A stretch of DNA of 45,775 nucleotides from Marmoricola sp. (GTDB lineage: Bacteria > Actinomycetota > Actinomycetes > Propionibacteriales > Nocardioidaceae), in NCBI RefSeq assembly GCF_025965085.1, contig NZ_JAOPXP010000146.1:1-45775 (forward strand), in the 5' to 3' direction. Made by a program: the position numbers and the translations under genes. This document shows positions 1,976 to 45,039 of the stretch, in pieces; positions within the stretch are counted from its first letter, which is position 1; each line of letters opens with the position of its first letter. The notes under the pieces are model-generated. The model did not search any database. It saw only the letters and a program-made list of their open reading frames with translations, and was not told the DNA's origin.

Positions 1976-3637
1976 TCAGCGGCGGCCCACCGTCTGCAGG
2001 TAGTCGTGCACCAGACGTACGGCGATCGCACCCTCACCGACCGCCGAGGCCACGCGCTTCACCGACCCGCTGCGGACGTCACCGACCGCGAACACACCCC
2101 GGCGCTCGGTCTCGAAGATCCCGGAGCTGCCTCCCCGGGAACCGGTGACGACGAAACCCCGATCGTCGAGGGGGATCTGACCGTCCAGCCAGCTGGTCTG
2201 CGGGATCGCGCCGATCATCACGAACAGTGCCGTGCTCTCCACGCGATGCTGCTCGCCCTGCGCCTGCAGGTCGTCGAGGACCACAGCCTCGAGCGCCTCC
2301 TCGCCGACCAGCGCGGCCACCTCGCAACTGCGCCAGAGGCGGATCTGCGGTGTCTGGACGACGCGGTCGGCCAGGTACCGGGACATGTCGCGGTACAGGT
2401 CGTCGTGGCGGATCGCCAGGTTGACCACGGAGGCGTTCCGGGCCAGGAACACGGCTGCCTGACCCGCAGAGTTGCCCCCGCCGACGACCATGACGGGGTC
2501 GTCACGGCACAGGCGGGCCTCGCTCTCGGTCGCGGCGTAGTAGACGCTCGAGGCCTCGAGGCGGTCCATGCCCTTGGCCTCGAGGCGCCTGTACTTCGCG
2601 CCGGTGGCCAGGATCACTGCATGGGCGTCCAGCTCGCCGCCGTCGGCCAGGCGCAGGAGGTGGTGCCCGTCCGCGCTGCCGAGCGAGAGCGCCGTCCCGG
2701 GAACGGTGAACGTGGCGCCGAACCGGCGCGCCTGGACGACTGCCCGGTCGGCGAGCTCGGCGCCGGAGATCCCCGCCGGGAACCCGAGATAGTTCTCGAT
2801 CCGCGACGAGGTTGCGGCCTGGCCCCCGGTCGCGACACTGTCCAGCACGATCGTGGAGAGTCCCTCGGACGCGCCGTACACGGCGGCGGCCAGGCCGGCG
2901 GGACCGGCGCCGACCACGACGAGGTCGTGCGCGCCTCCCGACGGCACGGTGCGCAGGCCCAGGAGCTTCGCCAGCTCGGCGTTGCTGGGGTTGCGCAGGA
3001 CGGACTGCCCCTTCCAGATGACGACCGGGGTCATCTCGGGTGGGACCTTCAGTCGCTGCAGGAGGGCCTCGGCCTCGGGGTCCTCCTCCAGGTCGACCCA
3101 GCGGTGCGGGATCCGGTTGCGGCTCACGAAGTCACGGATTCGTCGGCTGTCGGCCGAGTAGCGGGAGCCGATGATCCGCAGCCCGGCGCCGATGCCGGAG
3201 TGCAGCGATCGCCGGATCATGAAGGCCCGGAGGACGAGGTCTCCGAGGGTGGGGTCTTCGGCGACTGCGTCCATCAGCCCCTCGATCGGGACGTCGAGGA
3301 GCTTCACGTCCTCTCGGGCGACGGCTGTCAGATAGGCGTTCTGGCCGATCAGCAGGGACATGTCGCCGAGGAACCGCTTCGGCCCGTGGACCGCGATCAG
3401 CCGCGGCTCGGTGTCGGTCTCCTGGATGACTGCGACGGTCCCCTCCAGCACCACGAAGAAGTCACACTCGCTGTCTCCCTCACAGAAGATCAGGCCCCCG
3501 GCGGGAACGTCGGTCGTCGTACCGAAGCGGGAGAGCAGCATGATGTGCTCGTCGGAGAGGCGGGGATAGGCGCCGGAGGCGTCCGGGGTCTCGGGCTGCT
3601 CCAGCCCTGGGATCTCAGACGAACTGCGCATGCGCAT
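1976..3637 (-). CDS. Cyclic-nucleotide-binding/thioredoxin-reductase-like FAD oxidoreductase
   Basis: About 553 residues in three parts. A cNMP-binding domain at about 25-140 (GGLIFCEGDSECDFFVVLEG, RFLGDMSLLIG) is followed by a thioredoxin-fold segment at about 150-235. A TrxR-like flavoprotein half follows, with an FAD motif (VVVGAGPAGLAAAVYGASEG), an NADPH motif (VMVVGGGNSAGQAAVFLA) and the C-terminal FAD-site GVFAVGDVR. The CxxC of true thioredoxin reductases is missing: the site reads YYAATESEARLC. The thioredoxin-fold part also lacks CxxC. It may therefore reduce a non-disulfide acceptor. ATG at 3637 is preferred over the upstream start at 3703, which lies deep inside the UBP gene; 3631 is also possible. 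It is last in the chaperone-redox operon and overlaps the UBP gene by 23 bases. Confidence 0.87.
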   Translation of the reverse strand: MRMRSSSEIPGLEQPETPDASGAYPRLSDEHIMLLSRFGTTTDVPAGGLIFCEGDSECDFFVVLEGTVAVIQETDTEPRLIAVHGPKRFLGDMSLLIGQNAYLTAVAREDVKLLDVPIEGLMDAVAEDPTLGDLVLRAFMIRRSLHSGIGAGLRIIGSRYSADSRRIRDFVSRNRIPHRWVDLEEDPEAEALLQRLKVPPEMTPVVIWKGQSVLRNPSNAELAKLLGLRTVPSGGAHDLVVVGAGPAGLAAAVYGASEGLSTIVLDSVATGGQAATSSRIENYLGFPAGISGAELADRAVVQARRFGATFTVPGTALSLGSADGHHLLRLADGGELDAHAVILATGAKYRRLEAKGMDRLEASSVYYAATESEARLCRDDPVMVVGGGNSAGQAAVFLARNASVVNLAIRHDDLYRDMSRYLADRVVQTPQIRLWRSCEVAALVGEEALEAVVLDDLQAQGEQHRVESTALFVMIGAIPQTSWLDGQIPLDDRGFVVTGSRGGSSGIFETERRGVFAVGDVRSGSVKRVASAVGEGAIAVRLVHDYLQTVGRR

Positions 3638-3893
3638 AGCACCACCGCCAGTCCTCCCCGGGTTCGAAGGAGCGCACGACGACGTGGCCCACCGACGCGG
3701 CATGGGCGCGCGCGTGCCGCATCGGCGAGGAGTCGCAGCACCCGACCCGACCGCAGGTCAGGCACAGCCGCAGGTGCACCCAGGGGGTGCCCAGGCGAAG
3801 GCACTCCTCGCAGCCCTCCGGTGTGCGGGGGTGGACCGGGCGGATGAGCGCGATGTGGGGGTCCGGGACCGCCCGCCCGGCGGTGGCGGTCAC
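3615..3893 (-). CDS. UBP-type zinc finger protein
   Basis: A 92-residue protein dominated by a ZnF-UBP fold. Paired Cys motifs (CEEC at about 28-31, CLTC at about 44-47, then GCC) are followed by spaced His residues (HARAH...GH) and the typical VVRSFEPGEDWRWCY end. In eukaryotes this finger binds the ubiquitin C-terminus; bacterial versions have no ubiquitin and their ligand is not known. It begins with a GTG that overlaps the thioredoxin stop (GTGA) and overlaps the start of the flavoprotein gene. Tight coupling to both suggests a physical or functional partnership with the flavoprotein, which is inference. Confidence 0.85.
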   Translation of the reverse strand: MTATAGRAVPDPHIALIRPVHPRTPEGCEECLRLGTPWVHLRLCLTCGRVGCCDSSPMRHARAHAASVGHVVVRSFEPGEDWRWCYAHAQFV

Positions 3894-4344
3894 GTGTCGG
3901 CCTCCTGCTTCGGCAGCTTCTCCTCGAGCCAGGCACGCAGCGCGGTGGCGGGCGCAGCCCCGACCTGCTTGTCGACGACCTGAGCGTGGTCGAGCAGGAC
4001 CAGGGTGGGGATCGCCTGGACCTCGAACCGGCCACCGACCTGCGGTGAGTCGTCGGCGTTGACCTTGACGAGCTTCATGCGACCTGCCAGCTCACCGGCG
4101 AGCTGCTCGAGCGCCGGGCTCACCATGCGGCACGGTCCGCACCATGGAGCCCACACGTCGACGAGCACCGGGATCGTCGCCTCGTCCACCACGGCATGGA
4201 AGTCGGCGTCCGAGGCGTCCACCACCCACTTCAGCGGCGTGTGGCACTTTCCGCAGCGGGGGACACCCTCCGCGACCGCCGGGACACGGTTCTTGGCCCC
4301 GCAGTTCGAGCAGACGACGGTCGTCGAGCTCTCGGTCGTGGTGC

Positions 4345-4348
<4 letters not shown>
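3890..4348 (-). CDS. trxC: Thioredoxin 2-type protein with N-terminal zinc ribbon
   Basis: A 152-residue cytoplasmic disulfide reductase. Residues 13-36 carry two CxxC pairs ([17 protein letters not shown]), the zinc ribbon that marks the thioredoxin-2 (TrxC) subfamily. The thioredoxin fold follows with the active site [10 protein letters not shown] at about 67-76 and the cis-proline AIPTLVL near 113. All catalytic residues are present. It starts at an ATG overlapping the ClpB stop (ATGA). Thioredoxin 2 in enterobacteria is an oxidative-stress thioredoxin. Placed after clpB and before a TrxR-like flavoprotein, it probably links redox repair to refolding, although the neighbouring flavoprotein lacks the cysteines needed to reduce it directly. 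Confidence 0.92.
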
Positions 4349-6971
<2,623 letters not shown>

Positions 6972-6981
<10 letters not shown>

Positions 6982-7292
6982 CTCGGGCCTCCCTCTCGAG
7001 GCTGACGTCGTTGTGCGTTCTCGAGCTCGCTGACCCGGTCGAGGAGGTCGGTGACCAGGCCCAGGGCGGAGTACGCCAGGCGCAGGTCGAGGTGGAGTCG
7101 CTGGATCCGCGCCAACGCACGCACCTGTGTCGGGTCGAACCAGAGATCCCCGCGGGAGTCCTTCGTCACCTCGAGCAGGCCCAGCGCGAGGAACCGGCGG
7201 ACCAGGTCGGGATGGACTCCCGAGAGGCGGGCGTAGCTGTCCAGGCTCAACCGGTACGGGCGCCCGAGGGCGTAGCTCGTCGGCGTGCTCAT
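6972..7292 (-). CDS. cbpM: Chaperone modulator CbpM (MerR-like)
   Basis: A 106-residue protein with a MerR-like winged helix ([23 protein letters not shown], then [20 protein letters not shown]) and a C-terminal helix ([16 protein letters not shown]). This fits CbpM, which binds the J domain of CbpA and blocks it, rather than DNA-binding HspR, whose N-terminus is more like classic MerR. It directly follows the J-protein gene (four-base overlap) and overlaps clpB, the usual CbpM position. Actinobacterial dnaK operons normally have hspR in this slot. A DNA-binding role cannot be excluded from sequence alone. Confidence 0.82.
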
Positions 7293-8254
7293 GGGGCGCT
7301 CCTCGGGTCGAAGGTGGAAACGCTGCGGAGCTCCTCGAAGAGGCGCTCCTCCTTCTCGGACAGGGAGGACGGAACCTTGATCTGGGCCTCCGCGTACAGG
7401 TCACCCGGCTTGCCCCTGGGGTTGGGCAGTCCCCGTCCCCTGAGTCGCAGGCGACGTCCGCTCGAGGTCCCAGCCGGGACCGTGACCGTGGCGGGACCTC
7501 CCGGTGTGTCGATGCGCACCTGGGCCCCGAGGGCGGCTTCCCAGGGAGCCAGGGGCAGCCGCGTGTGCACGTCGCGGCCGGTCACCCGGTAGCGCGGGTG
7601 GGGGGCGATCCGGGCGATGAGGTAGAGGTCGCCCGCGTCTGCTCCGCCGGAACCGCTGCTGCCCTGGCCGCGCAGCCGGATCCGCTGGCCGTCGACCACG
7701 CCTGCGGGGATGTCGACCTCCAGGGTGCGGGGACCGCCGGGGGCGTCGATCGTCAGGGATCGGTGCGTGCCGCGGTAGGCGTCCTCGACGGACACCTCGA
7801 CCTCGGCCTCGACGTCGGAGCCGGGGATCGGGCCCCAGCCGGCCCGCCTCCGGCCACCGCCACCGAAGATCCCGCCGAGGAGGTCCTCGAGGTCGACGTC
7901 GTCACCCATGTCGAAGGGAACGCCACCACCAGCCGACCCGCCGGACCACCGGCTGCCGCCGCCGGCCGGTCCGGCACCTGCACCCGCCCGTGCCCTCGAC
8001 TGACGGTACTGGGCCGGGTCGACGTCAGGCGAGACGCGGCGGAAGTCCTCGCCGAACGCGTCGTAGCGCGTGCGTTGCTCGGGGTCCGAGAGCACGTCGT
8101 AGGCCTCGGAGATCTCCTTGAACCGCTCCTCGGCCCCGGGCTCCTTGTTGACGTCAGGGTGGTGGGTGCGCGCGAGCTTGCGGTAGGCCCGCTGGATGTC
8201 GGAGCGGTCGGCGTCCCGGGAGACGCCGAGGGCGTCGTAGAAGTCCCGCGCCAT
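7289..8254 (-). CDS. cbpA: CbpA-type J-domain co-chaperone
   Basis: About 321 residues. The J domain at 1-70 carries the HPD triad ([13 protein letters not shown]) that stimulates DnaK ATPase. A Gly/Ser/Ala-rich linker (about 80-130) is followed by two beta-sandwich substrate-binding domains ([44 protein letters not shown]). There is no CxxCxGxG zinc region, so this is a class II J protein of the CbpA type, consistent with cbpM next to it. ATG at 8254 is chosen because AGGAG lies six bases upstream and it overlaps the grpE stop as TGATG; a GTG one codon earlier is possible. Confidence 0.93.
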
Positions 8255-8733
8255 CACTCGCTCCTGGTGGCCACCACGACGGTCGCCGGCCGGAGGATCG
8301 AGCGGTCCTCCCCGTACCGGGGACGCAGTACCTGGGCGACGGTGCCCGGGACGAGCTGCTCGTCGGCGACCGTGCCGGCTGCCTCGTGGAGCGCCGGGTC
8401 GAACGCCTTGCCGGTGTCGTCGACCTGGGGATACCCGAGGGCGGAGAGCACCGCGAGGGCCTGCTGGTGCACGGCGCGGACACCCTCGACCAACGAGTCG
8501 GGGTCGGCATCCGCGTGCTCCAGCGCCCGCTCCAGGTTGTCGATCACCGGCAGCCAGGCTGCCGCGACCCGTCCCCGCTCCTGCTCACGGGCACCGGTGA
8601 GCTCCCTGGCGGCACGCTTGCGGAAGTTGTCCAGCTCGGCGGCCGTGCGTCGCCAGCCCTCCTCGAGGGCGGAGATCTTGGTGTCGGCGTCCTCGCGGTC
8701 GTCGGTCTCGGGAGGGGTGGTCGGTTCGGTCAT
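8254..8733 (-). CDS. grpE: Nucleotide exchange factor GrpE
   Basis: About 159 residues. It has an acidic N-terminus, a long helix (ALEEGWRRTAAELDNFRKRAARE) that forms the GrpE dimer coiled coil, and the beta domain with AFDPALHEAAGTVAD and the ending GTVAQVLRPRYGEDRSILRPATVVVA. The protein releases ADP from DnaK. It is shorter than most housekeeping GrpE proteins and its C-terminal signature is looser (RYGEDRSILRPA where many have GYRLGDRVLRPA), as expected of a divergent second copy. It starts a few bases after the dnaK stop, in GTGATG, without a clear Shine-Dalgarno site, so translation is probably coupled to dnaK. Confidence 0.93.
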   Translation of the reverse strand: MTEPTTPPETDDREDADTKISALEEGWRRTAAELDNFRKRAARELTGAREQERGRVAAAWLPVIDNLERALEHADADPDSLVEGVRAVHQQALAVLSALGYPQVDDTGKAFDPALHEAAGTVADEQLVPGTVAQVLRPRYGEDRSILRPATVVVATRSE

Positions 8734-8739
8734 CACGGG

Positions 8740-10638
8740 TCACTGGGTGGTGAAGTCGGCGTCGATGACGTCGTCGGCGTCGCTGCCTGCCTCTTCGTCG
8801 ACCCGCTCCGCCCCGCCGCTCGAGGCCGCCGATGGACCACTCGTCCTGGCGGCGGCGGCCAGCGCCTGCTGCATCTGGTGCAGCTCGCCGGTCAGGGAGC
8901 GGAGGCGGTCCAGTGGCGCCTCCTCCTCCAATGCGGTGCGTGCGTCGCTGATCAGGAGCTCGGCGCGGGCACGGTCGTGCTCGGGGACCGAGTCGCCGGC
9001 CGCCTCGAGCGCCCGCTGCACCTGGTAGGCGACGGAGTCGAGCTCGTTGCGCGCGTCCACGGTCTCGCGCAGCGCCGCATCCTCGCTGCTGTGCGCCTCG
9101 GCATCGGCGACCATGCGCTCGACCTCGGACTGGTCGAGGTTCGAGGTCTCGCTGATCGTCACCTGCTGCTCGGCTCCCGTCTCCTTGTCCCTCGCCGAGA
9201 CGTGGAGGATGCCGTTGGCGTCGATGTCGAACGTGACCTCGATCTGCGGGACACCCCGTGGCGCCGGCGGGATGTTCTCAAGGCGGAACCGGGCCAGCAC
9301 ACGGTTGTCGCTGGCGCGCTCCCGCTCTCCCTGGAGGACCACGACGTCCACGGCGGACTGGTTGTCCTCGGCGGTGCTGAAGACCTCGGTACGCCGGGCC
9401 GGGATCGTCGTGTTGCGCTCGATGACCTTCGTCATCACGCCGCCCATCGTCTCCAGGCCCAGGGACAGCGGGGTGACGTCGAGCAGCAGGACGTCCTTCA
9501 CGTCGCCCTTGATGATCGCGGCCTGGACGGCGGCCCCCAGAGCCACGACCTCGTCAGGGTTGACGGTCATGTTCGGGTCCTTGCCGCCGCTCATCCGGCG
9601 TACGAGGGCCTGGACCGCCGGGAGCCGGGTGGAGCCGCCGACCAAGATCACCTCGTCGATGTCGTCGGTGGTGATCTTCGCGTCCTCCAGAGCCTGGCGA
9701 ACGGGCCCCTGGCAGCGATCGACGAGGTCCGCTGTCAGCTGGTCGAACGTCGAGCGCATCAGGTTGACGTTGAGGTGTTTGGGGCCGGACGCGTCCGCGG
9801 TGACGAAGGGGAGGTTCACGGCGGTCTGGGTGACGGCCGAGAGTTCCACCTTGGCCTTCTCGGCAGCCTCGAAGAGGCGCTGCAGGGCTTGCGGGTCCTC
9901 GCGCAGGTCGATCCCGTTCGACTTCTTGAACTCGTCGGCGAGGTAGTCGACGACGCGCCGGTCGAAGTCGTCACCACCGAGGTGGGTGTCGCCTGCGGTG
10001 GACAGCACCTCGACCACGCCGTCGCCGACGGTCAGGACGCTCACGTCGAAGGTGCCACCGCCGAGGTCGAAGACGAGGACGGTCTCGTTCTCGAGCTTGT
10101 CCATGCCATAGGCGAGCGCCGCGGCGGTCGGCTCGTTGATGATGCGCAGCACCTCCAGGCCGGCGATCTTGCCCGCGTCCTTGGTGGCCTGCCTCTGGGC
10201 GTCGTTGAAGTGGGCCGGGACGGTGATGACTGCTTCCGTGACGCGTTCACCGAGGGCCTTGCCGGCGTCCTCCACGAGCTTGCGCAGGACCTGCGCCGAG
10301 ATCTCCTCCGGGGCGTACAGCTTGCCGTTCAGGTTGAAGCGCACCGCGCCGTCGGGACCCGCGACCACGTCGAAGGAGACGGCGTTGAGCTCGCTGGTCA
10401 CCTCGTCGTACTTGCGACCGATGAACCGCTTGGCGGAGTAGACGGTTCCCTTGGGGTTCAAGATGGCCTGGCGCCGGGCCATCTGGCCGACCAGGCGCTC
10501 ACCGGACTCGAGGAACGCCACGACCGAAGGAGTGGTCCGGTTGCCCTCGGCGTTGGGAATGACCTCAGGCTGTCCACCCTCCATGGCCGCGATCACCGAG
10601 TTGGTCGTCCCGAGGTCGATCCCCACTGCTCGTCCCAT
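8740..10638 (-). CDS. dnaK: Molecular chaperone DnaK (Hsp70)
   Basis: 632 residues, full-length Hsp70. The ATPase half has the phosphate-1 motif [12 protein letters not shown] at the N-terminus, [16 protein letters not shown] near 185 and [13 protein letters not shown] near 325. The substrate-binding half has the [17 protein letters not shown] linker region and the [21 protein letters not shown] strand. The lid ends in a Gly/Ser/Ala linker and [14 protein letters not shown] at 10638 has AGGAG eight bases upstream. It heads the chaperone-redox operon. No CIRCE element or HspR-type inverted repeat (CTTGAGT-N7-ACTCAAG) is visible upstream. Given the CbpA/CbpM partners it is probably a second, stress-specific DnaK, which is inference. 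Confidence 0.97.
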
Positions 10639-10701
10639 GGCCCGCTCCTGTCACTGGTTGGCCAGCGCCACGTTTCCGCAGCCCCCACGGACAGGCATCC
10701 C

Positions 10702-10719
10702 GTGAATGGGGGTGAATGG
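10702..10719. repeat. Two direct repeats GTGAATGG upstream of dnaK
   Basis: GTGAATGG occurs at 10702-10709 and again at 10712-10719. The 10-base period puts both on the same DNA face, about 65-80 bases upstream of the dnaK start in the only sizeable gap between the LuxR genes and dnaK. It could be a binding site for the adjacent LuxR regulators; a chance repeat is possible. Confidence 0.35.
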
Positions 10720-10739
10720 CCGGCGTTCCGCGAGCACGC

Positions 10740-11378
10740 TCAGCGGTGCGCGGGAAGGTGCTCCAGCGCGAGGACCGTGAGTGAGACCCGTGAGTGGATG
10801 CCGAGCTTGATGTAGGCGTGCTTGAGGTGGGCGTCCACGGTGTGGTGCGACATGGTCAGCCGGTCGGCGACCGCCCGGTTGGTCAGGCCGTCCGCCACGA
10901 GCTCCGCGACGCGGCGTTCCGCCCCCGTCAGGGTCATCCAGAGGTCCGGTGGCTTCCCGTGCCGGTACGCGGGAACCGCGGCCATGCCGCGACCGGGGAC
11001 GGCCGGCCCCGTGTGCCCCCGCGTCTGCGGGCGGAGGGGGGCCGCGAGCACGACCCGGTCCACGATCACCTTGGAGTGGGTGCGGAGCACGTCGATGAGC
11101 ATCCGGGCGTCGAAGCGTTGCAGGTCGTACATGCACATGTAGACCGCCTGGGACTCTTCCACGACCTCGCTGACCGCCGACTCGTAGCGGAAGAGGTCAT
11201 GGGCCTCCGGGTCGAGGTCGTCGATCAGGCGCCGCCCTCCGTCCCCCCTGCGCAGCCCACTCTCGAGGAACGAGCAGAGCATGCGCTCGCGCTCGTCCGG
11301 CGTCGAGTAGAGCGCGCAGAGATGGCTCCCGGGAAGGAGCTCGCCGACCCCTGGAATGCCGGATCCCGTGGCGGTCAC
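10740..11378 (-). CDS. LuxR-type regulator with shortened MEDS sensory domain
   Basis: 212 residues from a GTG that overlaps the upstream gene's stop (GTGA). Residues 1-110 match the start and end of a MEDS (DcmR sensory) domain: GSHLCALYSTPDERERMLC, GLRRGD, then directly LFRYESAVSEVVEESQAVYM, YDLQRF and VLRTHSKVIV. The 60 or so residues normally between GD and the RYE helix are absent, as comparison with the complete MEDS protein at 18854 shows. A LuxR HTH follows at about 150-205 (LTGAERRVAELVADGLTNRAVADRLTMSHHTVDAHLKHAY). It probably regulates transcription, perhaps of the dnaK operon that begins 101 bases downstream. The longer reading frame upstream is a shadow of the GAF-LuxR gene. Confidence 0.85.
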   Translation of the reverse strand: MTATGSGIPGVGELLPGSHLCALYSTPDERERMLCSFLESGLRRGDGGRRLIDDLDPEAHDLFRYESAVSEVVEESQAVYMCMYDLQRFDARMLIDVLRTHSKVIVDRVVLAAPLRPQTRGHTGPAVPGRGMAAVPAYRHGKPPDLWMTLTGAERRVAELVADGLTNRAVADRLTMSHHTVDAHLKHAYIKLGIHSRVSLTVLALEHLPAHR

Positions 11379-12388
11379 GTCGTCCTCGAGTGCGCGACGG
11401 GGACATAGAGACCCTCCCGGTCGGCCCGGACCGCGGCAAGGGTCCGCGTCGATGCCTCGAACTTCACCAGGATGTGCTCCACGTGGGAGGCCACCGTGCG
11501 TTGCGCCAGCACGAGCCGCCTGGCGATCTCGCGGTTGGAATGCCCCTGGACCAGATGGCCCAGGACCTCCAGCTCGCGCGGCGTGAGGCCCCGGCACTGG
11601 GCGAGGGGGGAGAGGACGACCATGCCGGCGTGGAGCTCGGGCACCTCGCAGGCCGTGCCGAGGACGGTGACGCGGACGTGACCTCCGGGTGCGTGCCGCC
11701 CTCCCAGCGGCCACAGGAAGGAACGGTAGACGTCGCCTGCACGGATGGCTCGCCACGCCGCCTCGAGCACCGGTGAGTCGCCCGCGAGGAGCGAGTGACC
11801 GTCGAGACCCGGTAGAGGCTGCGTCCCTCCGTCCACGCGGACCACGACTCCCGCCGTGGCGCCCTGAACGACGCCTGTCGCGGCGTGCATCGACCGCATC
11901 GGGTCGACGCCCTTCGACAGCACGGCCGTGATCGCGCCGAGCCTGCGTCGTGCGCCCGGTGAGGGCGGTTCACGGCTCGAGGAGAGAAGGGACAGCAGGC
12001 CCACGTGTCGACCGCCCGGGGCGAAGAGTGCGACACACAGGGACTCGCGGTAGCCCGCAGGCAGCAGGCAGTCCGCCCAGGTCTGGATCTCCTCGACAGG
12101 GTAGGGCCGATCGGATGGACTCATGGGGTGACGCGCACGGTTCGCGCCCGTCCACTCGATGTCCCGTGCGGTCCACGGGCCAGCGAGGTACGACAGCGTC
12201 GAGCGGTCCAGGTCGTTGCTTCCGAGCGAGGTGTAGGCGTGCGTGACGGGGTCCGCGACAGCCAGCCAGGCGCCGTCGAAACCGACCACGCGATGCAGCT
12301 TCTCGAGGAACGCTGCAGCGCGCCAGGTGATGGGCTCTGCCGAGGCGGCGATCTCGTTCAACTCAGCCCTGCTGAGCGTGTAGTGCAT
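11375..12388 (-). CDS. GAF-LuxR transcriptional regulator
   Basis: 337 residues. The N-terminal two thirds look like a GAF-type sensor (LHRVVGFDGAWLAVADPVTHAYTSLGS; later GYRESLCVALFAPGGRHVGLLSLLS). A LuxR HTH lies at about 265-325 (LTPRELEVLGHLVQGHSNREIARRLVLAQRTVASHVEHIL). ATG at 12388 has AGAGGA six bases upstream; the reading frame extends further but has no ribosome site. The gene is first of the leftward stress island and is preceded by a close match to a SigB/SigF promoter at 12421-12445. It diverges from the alcohol dehydrogenase operon, so it may control either side. Confidence 0.87.
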   Translation of the reverse strand: MHYTLSRAELNEIAASAEPITWRAAAFLEKLHRVVGFDGAWLAVADPVTHAYTSLGSNDLDRSTLSYLAGPWTARDIEWTGANRARHPMSPSDRPYPVEEIQTWADCLLPAGYRESLCVALFAPGGRHVGLLSLLSSSREPPSPGARRRLGAITAVLSKGVDPMRSMHAATGVVQGATAGVVVRVDGGTQPLPGLDGHSLLAGDSPVLEAAWRAIRAGDVYRSFLWPLGGRHAPGGHVRVTVLGTACEVPELHAGMVVLSPLAQCRGLTPRELEVLGHLVQGHSNREIARRLVLAQRTVASHVEHILVKFEASTRTLAAVRADREGLYVPVAHSRTT

Positions 12389-12420
12389 GCCAGGTCCTCT
12401 TTTCGACGGGCAACGGCGCG

Positions 12421-12445
12421 ATACCCACAGGACGCACAAGTAACC
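12421..12445 (-). promoter_or_regulatory. SigF/SigB-type promoter before GAF-LuxR gene
   Basis: Read on the minus strand: GGTT, 15 bases, GGGTAT. This fits the published actinobacterial SigF (GTTT-N15-17-GGGTAT) and SigB (GNNT-N14-16-GGGTA[C/T]) patterns. The GGGTAT ends 32 bases before the ATG, leaving room for a start site and the AGAGGA ribosome site. A sigma gene of the same family lies at 16303. Confidence 0.65.
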
Positions 12446-12475
12446 GGCGTCGACCCGGATCGAGGGCAGGCAGGG

Positions 12476-12493
12476 ATCGGCACTTCTGCCGAT
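12476..12493. promoter_or_regulatory. Inverted repeat ATCGGCA-N4-TGCCGAT
   Basis: Perfect 7-base arms with a 4-base spacer (CTTC), in the 177-base region between the divergent GAF-LuxR gene and the alcohol dehydrogenase operon. It is a plausible operator for a dimeric regulator. The regulator is unknown. Confidence 0.45.
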
Positions 12494-12532
12494 TGCGGCG
12501 CGCCGGGGTCACGCCCTGGACTGGCGGAAAGC

Positions 12533-12548
12533 GATCCACGGATGGATC
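12533..12548. promoter_or_regulatory. Inverted repeat GATCCA-N4-TGGATC
   Basis: Perfect 6-base arms with a 4-base spacer, ending eight bases before the GGAGGA ribosome site of the first alcohol dehydrogenase gene. It could be an operator near the transcription start or a short hairpin in the leader. Confidence 0.4.
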
Positions 12549-12565
12549 CCACAGTTGGAGGAACC

Positions 12566-13714
12566 ATGAAAGCCGTTGTGTACGAAGGGCCCCGCAAGGT
12601 CAGCGTCAAGGACGTGCCAGATGCACGTATCGAGGAGCCGACCGACCTCTTGGTGCGGATCACCACGACGAACATCTGCGGGTCGGACCTGCACATGTAC
12701 GAGGGCAGGACCTCCTTCGAGACCGGTCGCGTCTTCGGTCACGAGAACCTGGGTGAGGTCGTCGAGGTCGGCCCGGCGGTGTCGAAGGTCAAGGTGGGCG
12801 AGTACGTCGTACTGCCGTTCAACGTCGCCTGTGGCCACTGCAAGCAGTGCGAGAAGGGCCTCACGAACTACTGCCTCACGATGCAGCCCGTGCCCGAGCT
12901 CGCCGGTGCGGCGTACGGATTCGCCGACATGGGTCCCTACCAGGGTGGTCAGGCCGAGCTGCTCCGCGTGCCGTACGGCGACTTCAACGCGCTGCGGCTC
13001 GGGGAGGACGCGGAGGAGCGCCAGACGGACTACGTGATGCTGGCCGACATCTTCCCGACCGGCTACCACGCGACCGAGATGGCACAGGTCAAGCCGGGGG
13101 ACCAGACAGTGATCTTCGGTGCCGGACCCGTGGGGCAGATGGCGGCGTACTCGGCGATGTTGAAGGGTGCCAGCAGGGTGTGGGCTGTCGACCACCAGCC
13201 GGACCGGCTCGCCCTGGCCGAGAAGATCGGAGCGATTCCGGTCAACAGCGCCGAGGTGAACCCGTCGGAGGTCATCAAGGACGCCACCCTCGGACTCGGC
13301 GCCGACAACGGCTGCGAGTGCGTGGGTTACCAGGCCCACGACCCTCAGGGCCACGAGGACGCGAGCCTGACCCTGAACGGCCTCATCGACGCCGTCCGGT
13401 TCACCGGGCATCTCGGTGTGGTCGGGGTGTTCCTTCCCGAGGACCCCGGCGGCAAGGAGGCCCAGAACGAGCTGGAGGCCCAGGGCAAGGTGCCGATCGA
13501 CTTCGGAATGATGTGGTTCAAGGGACAGACGATGGGCACGGGACAGGCGCCGGTCAAGAAGTACAACCGAGCCCTGCGTGACCTCATCGCGGGTGACAAG
13601 GCCCGCCCCAGCTTCGTCGTCTCCCACGAGATCGACCTGGCGCAGGCCCCTGACGCCTACAACAACTTCGACGAGCGCAACGACGGCTGGACCAAGGTCG
13701 TCATGCACCCCTGA
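12566..13714 (+). CDS. Zinc-dependent alcohol dehydrogenase, formaldehyde-dehydrogenase-like
   Basis: 382 residues, medium-chain dehydrogenase family. Catalytic zinc ligands are seen in NICGSDLHMYEGR (about 38-50) and VFGHENLGEVVEVG (about 60-73). Structural zinc cysteines are in CGHCKQCEKGLTNYC (about 92-106). The NAD fold has FGAGPVGQMAAYSAMLKGA near 190. The long insert and QGGQAELLRVPYGDF resemble glutathione-independent formaldehyde dehydrogenases and dismutases, so aldehyde or alcohol oxidation with NAD is likely; the true substrate is not shown. ATG at 12566 has TTGGAGGA upstream. It is first in an operon with a DJ-1-like protein, a second such dehydrogenase and a 195-residue protein. 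Confidence 0.9.
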   Translation: MKAVVYEGPRKVSVKDVPDARIEEPTDLLVRITTTNICGSDLHMYEGRTSFETGRVFGHENLGEVVEVGPAVSKVKVGEYVVLPFNVACGHCKQCEKGLTNYCLTMQPVPELAGAAYGFADMGPYQGGQAELLRVPYGDFNALRLGEDAEERQTDYVMLADIFPTGYHATEMAQVKPGDQTVIFGAGPVGQMAAYSAMLKGASRVWAVDHQPDRLALAEKIGAIPVNSAEVNPSEVIKDATLGLGADNGCECVGYQAHDPQGHEDASLTLNGLIDAVRFTGHLGVVGVFLPEDPGGKEAQNELEAQGKVPIDFGMMWFKGQTMGTGQAPVKKYNRALRDLIAGDKARPSFVVSHEIDLAQAPDAYNNFDERNDGWTKVVMHP

Positions 13715-15507: not shown

Positions 15508-16095
15508 ATGACAGAGACCTGGACCTACGGTCCGGCCAAACCACCGCTGCCGGAGTCCACGAGTGTGCTGCGTGAGCGGATCCCGGGCTGGGGCGCCGAC
15601 CTGGACCCGAAGGACAGGCCGTCCGTGCCGAAGTTGCAGTTCGATCCGCACCTGAGCGGCGCCCACTGGGAGTTCCCGGAGCGCCAGCCGGAGAAGTGGC
15701 CTCGGGAGCGCTCCATCGAGCACGCCTTCCTGACGCCCGTGTTCGGCACGTCGTGCCCTCCGAGGGGTCTCTCCGGGCGTATCCGCAGGCTCGCGTACGC
15801 GAGGTACAGCGAGGGACGTACTGCTCACTGGCTGCTCCTGCTGGGCGCCGACCGGGTCGACACTCTCGGGAGCACCCTGTGGTCGTTCGCCAGCAGGCAC
15901 CCCGACAACCTCCTGACGGAGACCGGTGTCCTGAGTGAGCTCAGCCATCACGGGCTGAGCTCGCGCCTCGGCCGCAAGCGGACCGACACCATCCATCATC
16001 CGCTCGATCCACTCATCGTGGCCGGCCCGTGGCTGCTGGTGGCCGGGGTGATCTACAAGGCGCTCAGGAGAGTGGCGAGGACGCGCACCGGCTAG
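15508..16095 (+). CDS. Conserved-looking protein of unknown function, C-terminal membrane segment
   Basis: 195 residues, not matched to a named family by me. The first 60 residues are Pro-rich and charged (GWGADLDPKDRPSVPKLQFD). The middle has PVFGTSCPPRGLSGRIRRLAY and LLLLGADRVDTLGSTLWSF. One hydrophobic helix near 168-183 (DPLIVAGPWLLVAGVIYKAL) is followed by a basic tail, so it is probably tethered to the membrane with a mostly cytoplasmic domain. ATG has GGGAGGA upstream. It is 22 bases after the second dehydrogenase and clearly in that operon, so it probably serves the same detoxification or respiratory process. Confidence 0.75.
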   Translation: MTETWTYGPAKPPLPESTSVLRERIPGWGADLDPKDRPSVPKLQFDPHLSGAHWEFPERQPEKWPRERSIEHAFLTPVFGTSCPPRGLSGRIRRLAYARYSEGRTAHWLLLLGADRVDTLGSTLWSFASRHPDNLLTETGVLSELSHHGLSSRLGRKRTDTIHHPLDPLIVAGPWLLVAGVIYKALRRVARTRTG

Positions 16096-16302: not shown

Positions 16303-17181
16303 GTGCCCTTCCCCAGCCGATCACCCGCGTCAGGCATGCCGCCGACAGCGACCGCCCAGGAGCAGCACCGGGCCGAGCGTGCCCGGCGCACCACCGAACT
16401 GCTTGAGCAGGCGCGCTCCGCTCGCGACCCTGCCGAGCACGAGCAGATCATCGAGGACATCGTCGTGCTCAACATGGAGGTGGCCGAGTCGGTGGCGTGC
16501 CGGTACCATCACCGGGGAATCGCCCACGAGGACCTGCTGCAGGTGGCCTACCTCGCCCTGACCCAGGCAGCCAAGCGTTTCGATCCCGCGCTCGCATCGG
16601 GCAATGACGAGTTCCTGGCCTTCGCGGTTCCCACGATCCGTGGCGAGCTCCGCAAGCACTTTCGCGACCATGGGTGGGTCATCCGTCCCACCAGGCGCAT
16701 TCAGGAGCTCCAGCCGCGGATCCTCGCAGCCAGGGACGAGCTGCACCGGAACCTGGGGAGGACGCCCCAGCCTCGGGAGATAGCGGCCCACCTCGACGAG
16801 GATGAGGCACTGGTCAACGAGACGCTGGCCCTGGACGGCTGCTACCGGCCGTTGTCGCTCGACCTGCAGGCGCCAGACGAGGGCTGCCGCGTTCCCCTGG
16901 GCACCCTGGTGCGTGCACAGGACGCGGCGTGGGAGTCGGCCGAGGCCCGCATCATGCTGGAGAACTCGCTGCAGGCTCTGGGGGAGCGTGACCGGCGCAT
17001 CGTCTTCATGCGGTTCTTCCTCGGGCAGACCCAGCTCGAGATCGCCGAGGCGCTCGGCCTGACGCAGATGACGATCTCCAGGAACCTCACGCGCATCCTC
17101 CGCGAGATCCGGCAGCAGATCGGCGAGCTGGGCGACACCGTCACATTTCCTCAGCAGCAGGCCTCGCGGCGGGCGGGCTAG
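16303..17181 (+). CDS. RNA polymerase sigma factor, SigF/SigB/SigG family
   Basis: 292 residues. Region 2 spans about 45-115 (VACRYHHRGIAHEDLLQVAYLALTQAAKRFDP, then FAVPTIRGELRKHFRD), region 3 about 125-200, and region 4 about 220-270 (ALGERDRRIVFMRFFLGQTQLEIAEALGLTQMTISRNLTRIL). The RGELRKHFRDHGW block and the FFxGxTQxEIA motif place it with actinobacterial stress sigma factors. No anti-sigma or anti-anti-sigma gene is adjacent, which is unusual. GTG at 16303 is used; ATG at 16336 is an alternative. It may read the GNNT-N15-GGGTA promoters found at 12421, 22123 and 43601. Its stop overlaps the convergent PucR stop by four bases. Confidence 0.93.
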   Translation: MPFPSRSPASGMPPTATAQEQHRAERARRTTELLEQARSARDPAEHEQIIEDIVVLNMEVAESVACRYHHRGIAHEDLLQVAYLALTQAAKRFDPALASGNDEFLAFAVPTIRGELRKHFRDHGWVIRPTRRIQELQPRILAARDELHRNLGRTPQPREIAAHLDEDEALVNETLALDGCYRPLSLDLQAPDEGCRVPLGTLVRAQDAAWESAEARIMLENSLQALGERDRRIVFMRFFLGQTQLEIAEALGLTQMTISRNLTRILREIRQQIGELGDTVTFPQQQASRRAG

Positions 17182-21271: not shown

Positions 21272-22075
21272 TCACGTGGTCGAACCGTTCCCCGGCCGGT
21301 CGAGCGTCACGGTCTCGCCGCGCCGTACGGGGCGGAGCAGACCCCCGAAACCGGTGGCGACCGCGGCCTGCTGGAACTCGGACAGCGGCGAGCGGAAGAC
21401 CTTGTAGTCGTCGTAGTGCACCGGGATGGCCTGGACCGGCCGGATGCGACGCAGGAAGTCGACGCCCTGCTCGGCGTCCATCGTGACGGTGTGGAACAGC
21501 ACCCGCGTCCCGCCGAGGTGTACGACGGCCACGTCGATCCCGGGATGGCGTCGGGCGATCTCGTCGAGATGGTCGCCGGTCAGCGTGTCGCCGCTGAGGT
21601 AGACGCGCCGACGTACGACGCCATCCTGGCTGTGCTCCAGGAGGGTGCCCATCACGGGCGGCAGCAATCGTGCGAGGAGCCCACGCGCGTGCACCGCCGG
21701 CAGCGCGGTCAGCGTGAGGGTCTCCGTGCCATGAGCGATGGTCCTGGAGTCCCACGGCGAGAGGCCGTCTGCGTTGAATCCCCAGTCGGCGAGGGTTTCC
21801 GCTGCCTCAGGGGTGGTCAGGACCGGCTGGGTGCGGTCCAGCTTCGCACGCGCGACCCGGTCGAAGTGGTCGCCATGAAGGTGGGAGAGCACGACGGCGT
21901 CCAGCTCCGGAAGGTCCGATGGCTGCATGGCCGGTTCGGTGAGCCGACGGGACCACAGCCCCTTGCCGAGGTAGGCACGTTGGCCCCGGTGCAGGAAGTT
22001 GGGGTCCGTCAGGAGGGTGAAGGTGCCCAGCCGGAGCACGGTGGTGGCGGTTCCCACGAAGGTCAGCGTGTCCAT
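21272..22075 (-). CDS. MBL-fold metal-dependent hydrolase (UlaG-like)
   Basis: 267 residues of metallo-beta-lactamase fold. The N-terminus LTFVGTATTVLRLGTFTLLTDPNF is typical of the UlaG/lactonase-like group. Metal ligands appear in VVLSHLHGDHFDR (about 62-74), then ALPAVHARG, VYLSGDTLTG and the terminal AIPVHYDDYK. All expected His/Asp ligands are present. The substrate is unknown; lactones or phosphodiesters are family possibilities. ATG at 22075 matches the conserved N-terminus, although its closest good ribosome site (GAGGAG) instead serves a short upstream reading frame. A SigF-like promoter and a 27-base inverted repeat precede it. Confidence 0.9.
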   Translation of the reverse strand: MDTLTFVGTATTVLRLGTFTLLTDPNFLHRGQRAYLGKGLWSRRLTEPAMQPSDLPELDAVVLSHLHGDHFDRVARAKLDRTQPVLTTPEAAETLADWGFNADGLSPWDSRTIAHGTETLTLTALPAVHARGLLARLLPPVMGTLLEHSQDGVVRRRVYLSGDTLTGDHLDEIARRHPGIDVAVVHLGGTRVLFHTVTMDAEQGVDFLRRIRPVQAIPVHYDDYKVFRSPLSEFQQAAVATGFGGLLRPVRRGETVTLDRPGNGSTT

Positions 22076-22100: not shown

Positions 22101-22127
22101 GGTAGTGGTCGTCACGCAACCACTACC
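22101..22127. promoter_or_regulatory. 27-base inverted repeat before the MBL hydrolase gene
   Basis: GGTAGTGGT, 9-base spacer, ACCACTACC: perfect 9-base arms. It lies next to the GAGGAG ribosome site and overlaps the -10 element of the SigF-like promoter. This position suits a repressor operator or an RNA hairpin that masks the ribosome site. Confidence 0.55.
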
Positions 22128-22147
22128 CACGGGGCCGCGAAAGACAC
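22123..22147 (-). promoter_or_regulatory. SigF/SigB-like promoter before MBL hydrolase gene
   Basis: On the minus strand: GTGT, 15 bases, GGGTAG. It differs from the SigB pattern GNNT-N14-16-GGGTA[C/T] only in the last base. The element lies 47 bases upstream of the start codon. Confidence 0.45.
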
Positions 22148-29016: not shown

Positions 29017-30230
29017 GGGCGCGCCGTCCTCCTCGCGGGGTTGAACAGGGGGAGCTTCGCGGTGCCAGCGGCGACCCGCGTGGTGTGGTGCGAGATCGCG
29101 ATCTCCAGGTGCACCGGTGAACCGGGCGCCGCGAGACCGGGCCTCAGCCTGGCCAGGCCGATGTGGCGTTGCAGGACGGGGGAGTAGACGAAGCTGGTCA
29201 CGAAGCCGACCTGCGAGCCGCCCTCCGGCGCGTCGTACAGCATCGACTCGTAGGGCAGCGGGCTCTCGTCCTTCGACGGCAGCAGGCCGGCGTCGCGGTG
29301 CAGCCTGTCCCAGTGGGCCCAGTCGACGACCACGCCGACGGTGGCCCACCGGGAGGTCCCCGTGAGCTCCCTGACGATGGCGTCCCGGCCCACGAAGGGC
29401 CGGTCGCCGTCCTCGACGCCGCGCAGCATCCAGCCCATGCCCAGCTCCTGGGGTGTCACCCTCTGGTCGTCGGTGAAGGCCAGGCGGCTGTTGTGCCACT
29501 CGACGTCGACCAGCGGGAGGCCGGCCTCTATGCGCAGCGACATCAGCGCCTCCTCGCCGAACGGCCGGATGCCGTGACCCTGCCCCGCCTCGAGGACCGC
29601 GTCGAGGACGTCGAGCGCGTGTCCGGACTCCACGGTGATCTCGAAGCCCAGGTCGCCGGTGTAGCCGGTGCGCGAGAGCGTGACCGGTGCCGAGGCGACC
29701 TGGGCCGGGGCGTGGTCGAAGAACGCGAGCGAGTCCGCCTCGGGCATCAGCGCGGACAGCACCGTCCGCGAGCGAGGTCCCTGTACGGCGAGCATCCCGA
29801 AGTCGTCCGAGACGTCCTCGAGGCTCACCCGCAACCGGCCGGCGAGGTCGCAGAACCAGCCCAACGCCGGCCGTGCGACGGTGAGCAGGAACTCGGTCGC
29901 CGAGTGCCGGAAGACGACGCCGTCCTCCATGACGTAGCCGCGGTCGTCGCACCAGAGCGTGTACTGGGCCTGCCCCGGCCGGCAGGTGCGGATGTCGCGG
30001 ACGAGCACGCCGGCCAGGAAGCGCTCGGCGTCCGGCCCCTCGATCCGGTACTTGAACAGGGGAGAGGTGTCGAAGACCCCGACGGAGTTCCGGACGGCGA
30101 AGTACTCGTGCTTGGGCGAGTGGGTGTAGCGCAGCGCCGAGAGGTACCCCTGCCAGTGGGTGTAGAGCCCCTGGGTGTTCAGCTCGCTCAGCCGCGCGTG
30201 GAACGGAGTCGTCCTGATCACCGCGGCCAC
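29013..30230 (-). CDS. GcvT-like aminomethyltransferase/demethylase family protein
   Basis: 405 residues. The GcvT folate-binding fold is recognisable: VGVFDTSPLFKYRIEGPDAERFLAGVL, YTLWCDDRGYVMEDGVVFR, DFGMLAVQGPRSRTVLSAL, TGYTGDLGFEITVE, and the C-terminal beta barrel (GSQVGFVTSFVYSPVLQRHIGLARLRPG). Family members move one-carbon units to tetrahydrofolate: glycine cleavage T protein, DMSP demethylase, dimethylglycine or O-demethylases. No gcvH or gcvP is nearby, so a stand-alone demethylase is more likely. GTG at 30230 is the start. It pairs with the flavoprotein by a four-base overlap. Confidence 0.85.
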   Translation of the reverse strand: MAAVIRTTPFHARLSELNTQGLYTHWQGYLSALRYTHSPKHEYFAVRNSVGVFDTSPLFKYRIEGPDAERFLAGVLVRDIRTCRPGQAQYTLWCDDRGYVMEDGVVFRHSATEFLLTVARPALGWFCDLAGRLRVSLEDVSDDFGMLAVQGPRSRTVLSALMPEADSLAFFDHAPAQVASAPVTLSRTGYTGDLGFEITVESGHALDVLDAVLEAGQGHGIRPFGEEALMSLRIEAGLPLVDVEWHNSRLAFTDDQRVTPQELGMGWMLRGVEDGDRPFVGRDAIVRELTGTSRWATVGVVVDWAHWDRLHRDAGLLPSKDESPLPYESMLYDAPEGGSQVGFVTSFVYSPVLQRHIGLARLRPGLAAPGSPVHLEIAISHHTTRVAAGTAKLPLFNPARRTARP

Positions 30231-43600: not shown

Positions 43601-43625
43601 GTGTACGGGGCGGCACGACGGGTAC
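43601..43625 (+). promoter_or_regulatory. SigB/SigF-type promoter before aldehyde dehydrogenase gene
   Basis: GTGT, 15 bases, GGGTAC. This matches the Streptomyces SigB pattern GNNT-N14-16-GGGTA[C/T] fully. It ends 43 bases before the GTG start. Confidence 0.6.
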
Positions 43626-43668: not shown

Positions 43669-45039
43669 GTGTCCCATGACTCCCCTCGCACGCTGACGAT
43701 CCTCGACCCCAGGGACGGCACCTTGGTGGGGCGGCTGGACTGCATGGCTCGAGCCGCCGTCGATGCCGCCGTCGCGGCTGCGGCGAAGGCCGCCCCGGAC
43801 TGGCGGCGTACGGCACCGACCGAGCGCGCGGGCATGCTTCATGCAGCCGCCGCACGGGTGGCCGGGGCAGCGGACCGGCTGGCCGAGCTGACCGCGTGCG
43901 AGATGGGGAAGCCGCTCGAGGATGCGCGTGGCGGCGTCGAGGCCGGCGTGTCCTCGCTCAGGCAGTACGCCGAGCTGGGCCCGCTCCATCGCGGACGCAG
44001 CCTGCAGGGGTCCTGGGACTCCACCGACCTCATGGTGCCCGGGCCCCGCGGCGTCGTCGCCGCCATCACGCCGTGGAACGACCCGGTCGCGGTGCCGTGC
44101 GGTCTTCTCGGCGCCGCGCTGGTGACAGGCAACACGGTGGTGTTCAAGCCCTCGGAACGGACTCCGCACACCGGGCTCCAGCTGGGCCGCCTGCTCTCGG
44201 CGGAGCTGCCCGCCGGTGTTCTGGAGGTGGTGGTGGGGGACGGCTGCGCGGGTGCGTGGCTCAGTGAGTCCCCCGAGGTCGACCTGGTGGCGCACGTGGG
44301 TTCCACGGAGACCGGCCGCAGCATCGCGGCCGCCGCCGCGCGGACCGGGGCGAAGGTCCTCCTGGAGAACGGCGGCAACGACCCGATGGTCGTCGACGGG
44401 GACGTCGACCCCGAGTGGGCAGCGGAACAGGCCGCACTGGGTGCGTTCGCGAACGCCGGCCAGATCTGCACCTCGGTGGAGCGGATCTATGTCGTCGCCG
44501 ACGTAGCCGAACCGTTCCTGGAGTCGCTCACGCGGCGTGCCCGGAACTGTGCGATCGGTCCGCTCGTGGACGAGCGGATGCGCCGGGCCGTGCACGCGCA
44601 GGTGAGCGAGGCGGTCGCCGCCGGCTCCTGCCTGCACACCGGGGGAGTGGTTCCCGACGGAGCCGGCACCCACTACCCGCCCACAGTGATCTCCGGCTGC
44701 ACCCAGGAGATGACCGTGATGTGTGAGGAGACCTTCGGCCCCGTGGCACCGGTCATGGTCGTGCCCGACTTCGACGCGGCCCTCGAGGCCGCACGTCAGG
44801 GCCGGTACGGGCTGGCGGCCGTGGTTCTCACCGCGTCGATGGAGCACGCCCAGCGAGCCTGGCGCGAGCTGCCCGTCGGGACGGTCAAGCTGAACGCCGC
44901 CTTCGGCGGGGCTCCCGGCGGCGCCGCACACCCACGTGGGGCGAGCGGGTCCGGTTTCGGCTACGGACCTGAGCTGCTCGACGAGATGACCGCCACGAAA
45001 GTGGTCCACCTCGGGGTTCCTCGGCCGCGGATTGCATGA
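43669..45039 (+). CDS. NAD(P)-dependent aldehyde dehydrogenase
   Basis: 456 residues, ALDH superfamily. PRGVVAAITPWNDPVAVPCGLLGAALVTGNTVVFKPSE holds the catalytic Asn (PWN) and cofactor Lys. VAHVGSTETGRSI, the general base in VLLENGGNDPMVV and the nucleophile in FANAGQICTSVERIYV follow; all key residues are present. EETFGPVAPVMVV closes the fold. It is slightly short at the N-terminus compared with 480-500-residue members. The start is a GTG with AAGGAG upstream. It stands alone downstream of a SigB/SigF-type promoter, fitting stress-time aldehyde removal. The substrate is unknown. Confidence 0.93.
   Translation: MSHDSPRTLTILDPRDGTLVGRLDCMARAAVDAAVAAAAKAAPDWRRTAPTERAGMLHAAAARVAGAADRLAELTACEMGKPLEDARGGVEAGVSSLRQYAELGPLHRGRSLQGSWDSTDLMVPGPRGVVAAITPWNDPVAVPCGLLGAALVTGNTVVFKPSERTPHTGLQLGRLLSAELPAGVLEVVVGDGCAGAWLSESPEVDLVAHVGSTETGRSIAAAAARTGAKVLLENGGNDPMVVDGDVDPEWAAEQAALGAFANAGQICTSVERIYVVADVAEPFLESLTRRARNCAIGPLVDERMRRAVHAQVSEAVAAGSCLHTGGVVPDGAGTHYPPTVISGCTQEMTVMCEETFGPVAPVMVVPDFDAALEAARQGRYGLAAVVLTASMEHAQRAWRELPVGTVKLNAAFGGAPGGAAHPRGASGSGFGYGPELLDEMTATKVVHLGVPRPRIA

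Follow-up and report, generated by a model that had tools for sequence, protein, structure and literature searches.

The DNA analyzed here, called the window throughout, is a stretch of 45,775 nucleotides from Marmoricola sp. Handles with G, C, L and f stand for genomes, contigs, loci and families. The window contains two adjacent LuxR-type regulator genes between a chaperone-redox island and a divergent dehydrogenase gene, further a sigma factor gene, an MBL-fold hydrolase gene and an aldehyde dehydrogenase gene. Three promoter-like sites, an inverted repeat and an element before dnaK complete the set of features:

1976..10638, minus strand: DnaK-GrpE-CbpA-ClpB-Trx-TrxR(cNMP) island
10695..10710, minus strand: CCCATTCACGGGATGC, counterpart of an element conserved 5' of dnaK in relatives
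10740..11378, minus strand: LuxR2, a MEDS-LuxR regulator, its start overlapping the LuxR1 stop (GTGA)
11375..12388, minus strand: LuxR1, a LuxR-type regulator whose N-terminal part is weakly GAF-like
12421..12445, minus strand: site 1, GGTT-N15-GGGTAT, before the LuxR1 gene, putative SigB/F-type promoter
12476..12493, plus strand: inverted repeat ATCGGCACTTCTGCCGAT between LuxR1 and fdhA, candidate fdhA operator
12566..13714, plus strand: fdhA-like zinc alcohol/formaldehyde dehydrogenase, divergent from LuxR1
16303..17181, plus strand: SigB/F/G-type sigma gene, Pfam sigma70 regions 2, 3 and 4
21272..22075, minus strand: MBL-fold hydrolase
22123..22147, minus strand: site 2, GTGT-N15-GGGTAG, before the MBL-fold hydrolase gene, the least supported of the sites
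43601..43625, plus strand: site 3, GTGT-N15-GGGTAC, before the aldehyde dehydrogenase gene
43669..45039, plus strand: aldehyde dehydrogenase

All three 25-mers highlighted by the initial annotation were found at the positions and on the strands it had given. Each is in the right orientation, shortly 5' of a start codon, and has a spacing of 15. The distance from the start of GGGTA to the predicted start codon is 38 bases for LuxR1 (12388), 53 bases for the MBL-fold hydrolase (22075) and 49 bases for the aldehyde dehydrogenase (43669). The MBL start codon is uncertain, as a GAGGAG lies about 20 bases 5' of the ATG at 22075. The label "GAF-LuxR", previously given to the product of the gene behind site 1, holds for the clear LuxR-type HTH of the LuxR1 protein and is weak for the GAF part, the GAF_2 matches of the window protein (E 0.0074) and of its homologue in G060 (7e-4) both missing the Pfam cut-off.

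First, the frequency of the motif has to be considered. Scanning both strands of the window for GNNT-N14-16-GGGTA yielded six matches, exactly three of which have N15 and correspond to sites 1-3, the others being located at 12081 on the plus strand (N14) and at 30145 and 5000 on the minus strand (both N16). The non-coding DNA of the window, defined by our own gene calls, contains four GGGTA words, and three of the four have GNNT at a distance of exactly 15 (binomial p 2.8e-4, or 6e-3 if any spacing of 14-16 is allowed). Genome-wide (3.55 Mb), 95 copies of GNNT-N15-GGGTA were counted versus 103 of the reversed pattern, which is no enrichment. From the genome rate 1.22 N15 sites are expected per window, so that three are not unusual (P of three or more = 0.13). 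Hence, the motif by itself proves little, and these counts fit a chance reading, with a loose consensus of 9 letters landing before three genes of a GC-rich genome by luck. Using 70 unselected genome stretches, which total 0.76 Mb and have 389 upstream regions by our own gene calls, the N15 and N16 forms together were found 9 times in sense orientation versus 3.0 expected from other spacings (p 0.004), and 6 times in antisense orientation (p 0.08). The enrichment 5' of start codons, a check named in the initial annotation, was modest in these upstream regions. The sole -35 word with a clear spacing preference in these stretches was GTTT, for which GTTT-GGGTA pairs occurred at spacing 15 (5) and 16 (2), with 2 for the 22 other spacings together. 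Given this preference, promoters of the SigB/F class are apparently used in this genome. One of these seven GTTT sites lies 5' of a sub-threshold Transgly_assoc protein and one 5' of an MT0933-like antitoxin; for the remaining five a simple scan found no recognisable gene. No clear spacing preference was apparent for GTGT, which forms the -35 of sites 2 and 3 (k=15: 2; k=16: 4; other spacings: 0-4). An Rfam search gave no match at gathering score.

In order to judge the sites by conservation, homologues of the three genes were collected within the same bacterial order and the DNA 5' of each was inspected. The LuxR1 set comprised 14 upstream regions (the window, one paralogue from the same genome, and 12 from relatives), the aldehyde dehydrogenase set all 12 matches, and the MBL set 20 of 47 matches. 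Two short matches from a scan of the genome contigs with LuxR1 were left out of the results. Before LuxR1 homologues GGGTA was found in 12 of 14 regions in sense and in 1 of 14 in antisense orientation, and the full GNNT-N14-16-GGGTA in 7 of 14, the copy in G088 lying far upstream near the divergent fdhA. Five genomes (G098, G060, G202, G279, G169) have GGGTA before LuxR1 but without a strict GNNT at 14-16, and both LuxR1 homologues of G158 lack GGGTA upstream. The paralogue in the same genome (G000:C243:1808-2880, L109), 54-55% identical, is preceded by GCTT-N15-GGGTAT; among eleven weaker homologues of 26-34% identity no upstream GGGTA was found (0/11). The aldehyde dehydrogenase homologues carry the full motif in 9 of 12 upstream regions, the exceptions being G075, G063 and G053, and an antisense motif in 6 of 12, several of them as back-to-back pairs. 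Motifs on both strands were observed at L196, L197, L198, L199, L201 and L202, an arrangement that suggests divergent promoters. For the MBL-fold hydrolase the full motif was present in 5 of 20 upstream regions, never in antisense orientation (0/20). A coding-like frame ending within 60 bases of the MBL start was found in 9 of 15 motif-less and 0 of 5 motif-bearing loci; for these nine genes an own promoter may be needless. Among homologues without such an abutting frame, 5 of 11 have the full motif.

The spacing turned out to be the most telling property. When the spacer length k was slid from 6 to 29, k=15 gave 6/14 hits for LuxR1, 4/20 for MBL and 6/12 for aldehyde dehydrogenase, and k=16 gave 2/14, 1/20 and 3/12, respectively, with 0-2 sense hits at every other k. 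After removal of the window from all three sets, of L181 (duplicate of L180) and of L197 (near-duplicate of L196), N15 was still found in 5/13 LuxR1, 3/18 MBL and 5/10 aldehyde dehydrogenase upstream regions, compared to means of 0.11, 0.06 and 0.05 and a maximum of 2 each in 500 dinucleotide shuffles per set. We are aware that relatives are not independent samples, and the shuffles were therefore read as a guide and not as a probability. Presence, position and orientation of the motif, as well as its recurrence with a 15-16 spacing 5' of homologues, were seen directly. Motif and gap thus return together 5' of the same genes in relatives, which is not expected from chance and supports the promoter reading, including the SigF/SigB type assigned in the initial annotation. 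Luck would agree with the missing genome-wide enrichment and with the many homologues lacking the motif (3/12 aldehyde dehydrogenase, 15/20 MBL). However, it does not account for a spacing-specific recurrence above shuffles before homologues of all three genes, nor for the strand bias of GGGTA before LuxR1, and we consider it very improbable. Site 2 is the most open of the three to such a chance reading. Overall, sites 1 and 3 are very probably promoters for a SigB/SigF-type sigma factor, site 2 probably, and transcription is predicted to start at all three.

Which sigma factor would read these sites is a separate question. The gene at 16303, previously described as a SigF/SigB-type sigma gene, proved to be real, with Pfam sigma70 regions 2, 3 and 4 and SigBFG as its best-scoring NCBIfam model, its match to TIGR02980 (SigB/SigF/SigG) of about 202 bits lying below the curated threshold of 234.35. 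The genome encodes five SigB/F/G-type sigmas with strong matches, the window sigma among them (C176 304.6, C93 233.5, C40 219.7, C5 218.5, window 202.0 bits), and five weaker matches were found in addition. The sigma gene on C176 has a HATPase_c_2 (RsbW-like) gene 3 bases upstream. For the window sigma, a Pfam scan of 30 distinct reading frames of the window, a part of all its frames, detected no RsbW-like or STAS partner; a distant partner is possible. Sigma region 4.2 reads the -35 element. All 14 sigmas compared, from relatives and paralogues, have QM[QH][VI][SC]R in the helix of this region. The window sigma departs from it with QMTISRNL, so its -35 specificity may have changed.

The initial annotation had linked the 16303 sigma to the three sites and had suggested that the whole regulator-chaperone-redox island could be controlled from site 1. 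The distance of the sigma gene from the sites, 4 to 26 kb, is in favor of such a pairing, and so is G017, where a 49% identical sigma lies about 3 kb from the LuxR1 gene; in the other fetched LuxR1 loci no sigma homologue above 38% identity was seen. Relatives argue against it. Six genomes with one SigBFG match each at 1e-45 (G115, G197, G208, G104, G131, G122) keep the site before LuxR1 or aldehyde dehydrogenase, and in four of them (G115, G104, G197, G208) nothing matches the window sigma at 1e-50. G158 also has a single SigBFG match at 1e-45, yet no site before its LuxR1 homologues. With five paralogues, single-sigma relatives that keep the sites and a changed region 4.2, the pairing is unproven. 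The sites would be read by one or more of the five SigB/F/G-type sigmas, and the rsbW-linked SigF on C176 is at least as likely a reader as the window sigma. A few further observations concern sigma genes and their surroundings. In four genomes (G088:C16, G150:C1, G269:C1, G122:C20) some 15-20 kb separate the aldehyde dehydrogenase gene from a SigB/F/G-type sigma gene, compared to 26 kb in the window, a proximity due to chance or old linkage. At G000:C93:13888-13986 (L111) a divergent pair of GTGT-N15-GGGTA motifs is located close to where another SigB/F-type sigma gene and a hemerythrin-domain frame have their 5' ends. At L173 and L176, visual inspection suggests similarity between the frame preceding the MBL gene and the unknown protein encoded at 15508-16095 in the window, hinting at one regulon.

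The second part of the earlier proposal, the control of the island by site 1, was followed along the DNA and across relatives. The LuxR2 start overlaps the LuxR1 stop by GTGA, which places LuxR2 probably under site 1, and dnaK follows about 100 bases further on. Searching 8600-13000 for sigma-70-like promoters and terminator-like sites found none. This coupling and the lack of a terminator-like site before dnaK are in favor of the proposal, and they make read-through from site 1 into the chaperone island possible in this genome. The cNMP-type TrxR gave 17 strong matches outside the window; 16 loci were fetched, and G056 lies at a contig end. The gene order DnaK-GrpE-CbpA-ClpB-Trx-TrxR is kept in 16 of 16. 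A LuxR2-matching stretch precedes dnaK in 3/3 f1, 8/8 f3 and 0/5 f4 loci, the f3 stretch covering just the HTH-containing final portion of LuxR2. Within the 16 fetched island loci no match to LuxR1 was found; in G060 LuxR1 lies about 4 kb beyond TrxR. Within 400 bases before dnaK the SigB/F motif was not found in sense orientation in any of the 16 relatives' loci (0/16). Bare GGGTA occurs before dnaK in 4 of 16, in G060 as GGGTAT at -59, and the 300 bases before LuxR2 contain no SigB/F-type site in G046, G202 and G264. A different element is conserved 5' of dnaK in 11 of 12 aligned upstream regions, the f4 loci lying outside the alignment. It has the form CCCGTTCACGGGATGC in three f1 genomes and, except in G159, the 8 f3 genomes have a variant that ends with GGGGATGTG (7 of 8). 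Its copies belong to loci L276-L286 and to 10695-10710 of the window, and it is perhaps a LuxR2 site. No exact match to the HAIR and CIRCE heat-shock elements was found in the window; loose HAIR matches were many and background-like. The lack of the motif before dnaK together with a separate conserved element argues for separate control, and the chaperone island is probably regulated on its own. The original proposal, in which the 16303 sigma reads all three sites and the whole island depends on site 1, is in our view unlikely.

Between LuxR1 and fdhA lies a second candidate control element. Twelve loci contain LuxR1 and fdhA within the fetched stretch. In 9 of 12 fdhA loci a copy of the inverted repeat with at most 2 mismatches is centered 81-97 bases 5' of fdhA. 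Repeats similar to RTCGGCATNTCTGCCGAT were noted before fdhA in the window (12476-12493) and at L116, L117, L151, L153, L156, L158, L167 and L169. G158 and G088 have the repeat with 3 mismatches at 111-117 bases 5' of fdhA, and in G309 the best fdhA repeat has 5 mismatches and a similar repeat stands before its LuxR1 gene. The repeat has remained next to fdhA in G017 and G060, even though LuxR1 is found there at the other operon end. Three LuxR1-type loci (C243, one of those in G158, and G017:C40) have no close fdhA in the stretch. If the word TG[TC]AAT, found 22-23 bases past the repeat in 6 of 12 fdhA upstream regions and absent downstream of the window repeat, is a -10 element, the repeat would be positioned near -44. 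By linkage alone, LuxR1 is the natural candidate to bind the repeat. As a genome-wide regulon marker the repeat was rejected as too loose, since allowing 2 mismatches gave 26 places in the genome of the window versus 6 for the control; genome-wide counts were high in 12 of 12 genomes searched. A literature search covering titles, abstract openings and part of the matches found no description of the module or the repeat.

Taken together, we are fairly confident that a SigB/SigF-family sigma factor reads sites 1-3 and that these drive LuxR1-LuxR2, the MBL-fold hydrolase and the aldehyde dehydrogenase, respectively, with a proposed relay from LuxR1 to fdhA. A stress sigma would transcribe the LuxR1-LuxR2 pair from site 1, the MBL-fold hydrolase from site 2 and the aldehyde dehydrogenase from site 3. 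LuxR1 would then act on the divergent fdhA operon via the conserved inverted repeat, giving a relay from stress sigma via LuxR1 to fdhA-pfpI-adh. The chaperone island would have its own control through the dnaK element, perhaps a LuxR2 site, with possible read-through from site 1. In the same titles and abstract openings no description was found of a stress relay from a sigma factor via a LuxR regulator to a detoxification operon. A more far-reaching scenario is doubtful. In it, a SigB/F-type sigma acts via LuxR and the palindrome on a formaldehyde/aldehyde-detoxification operon; in this genome the relay was fused before a separately regulated DnaK-ClpB-thioredoxin island, which a stress sigma can now reach; and the window sigma, an altered -35 reader, is a specialised paralogue serving the relay. 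The kind of promoter and of regulon is already known. What is new is the set of conserved targets, together with the repeat before fdhA and the element before dnaK. Three short motifs thereby become a conserved regulon core of LuxR1, aldehyde dehydrogenase and MBL-fold hydrolase, and two candidate operators are gained, one before fdhA and one before dnaK. The case also shows that proximity of a sigma gene to a site says little about their pairing when a genome has several SigB/F-type sigmas.

A known arrangement is an activator site of a LuxR-type regulator just upstream of a promoter. The fdhA repeat is similar in that its end lies 22-23 bases before TG[TC]AAT in 6/12 fdhA upstream regions. 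It differs in that the binding protein is deduced from linkage alone and in that the window has no TG[TC]AAT. Among described systems, the sites resemble SigB-group promoters of Streptomyces coelicolor as presented in parts of PMC8346170, with a GNNT or GTTT -35, a GGGTA-like -10 and a similar spacing. According to the same parts, SigB/L/M promoters of S. coelicolor have GNNT and SigF/H/N promoters GTTT as -35, with broad cross-recognition. Several paralogous SigB-type sigmas per genome are common to both organisms, cross-recognition being described for S. coelicolor in this material (PMC8346170). The S. coelicolor promoters in these parts of the paper were shown by assay and start mapping, whereas ours are deduced from conservation, and the target set of LuxR1, MBL-fold hydrolase and aldehyde dehydrogenase is absent from this S. 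coelicolor material (PMC8346170). A second comparison is offered by the SigF regulon of Mycobacterium smegmatis, in the portion of PMC4694148 used here likewise an actinobacterial stress regulon recognised by its promoter consensus. In contrast to the regulon proposed here, the terms dnaK, aldehyde dehydrogenase and LuxR do not appear in the main text of PMC4694148 (0 occurrences). Indirect control via SigF-dependent regulators was proposed for M. smegmatis in the same portion (PMC4694148), which resembles the relay from stress sigma via LuxR1 suggested here.
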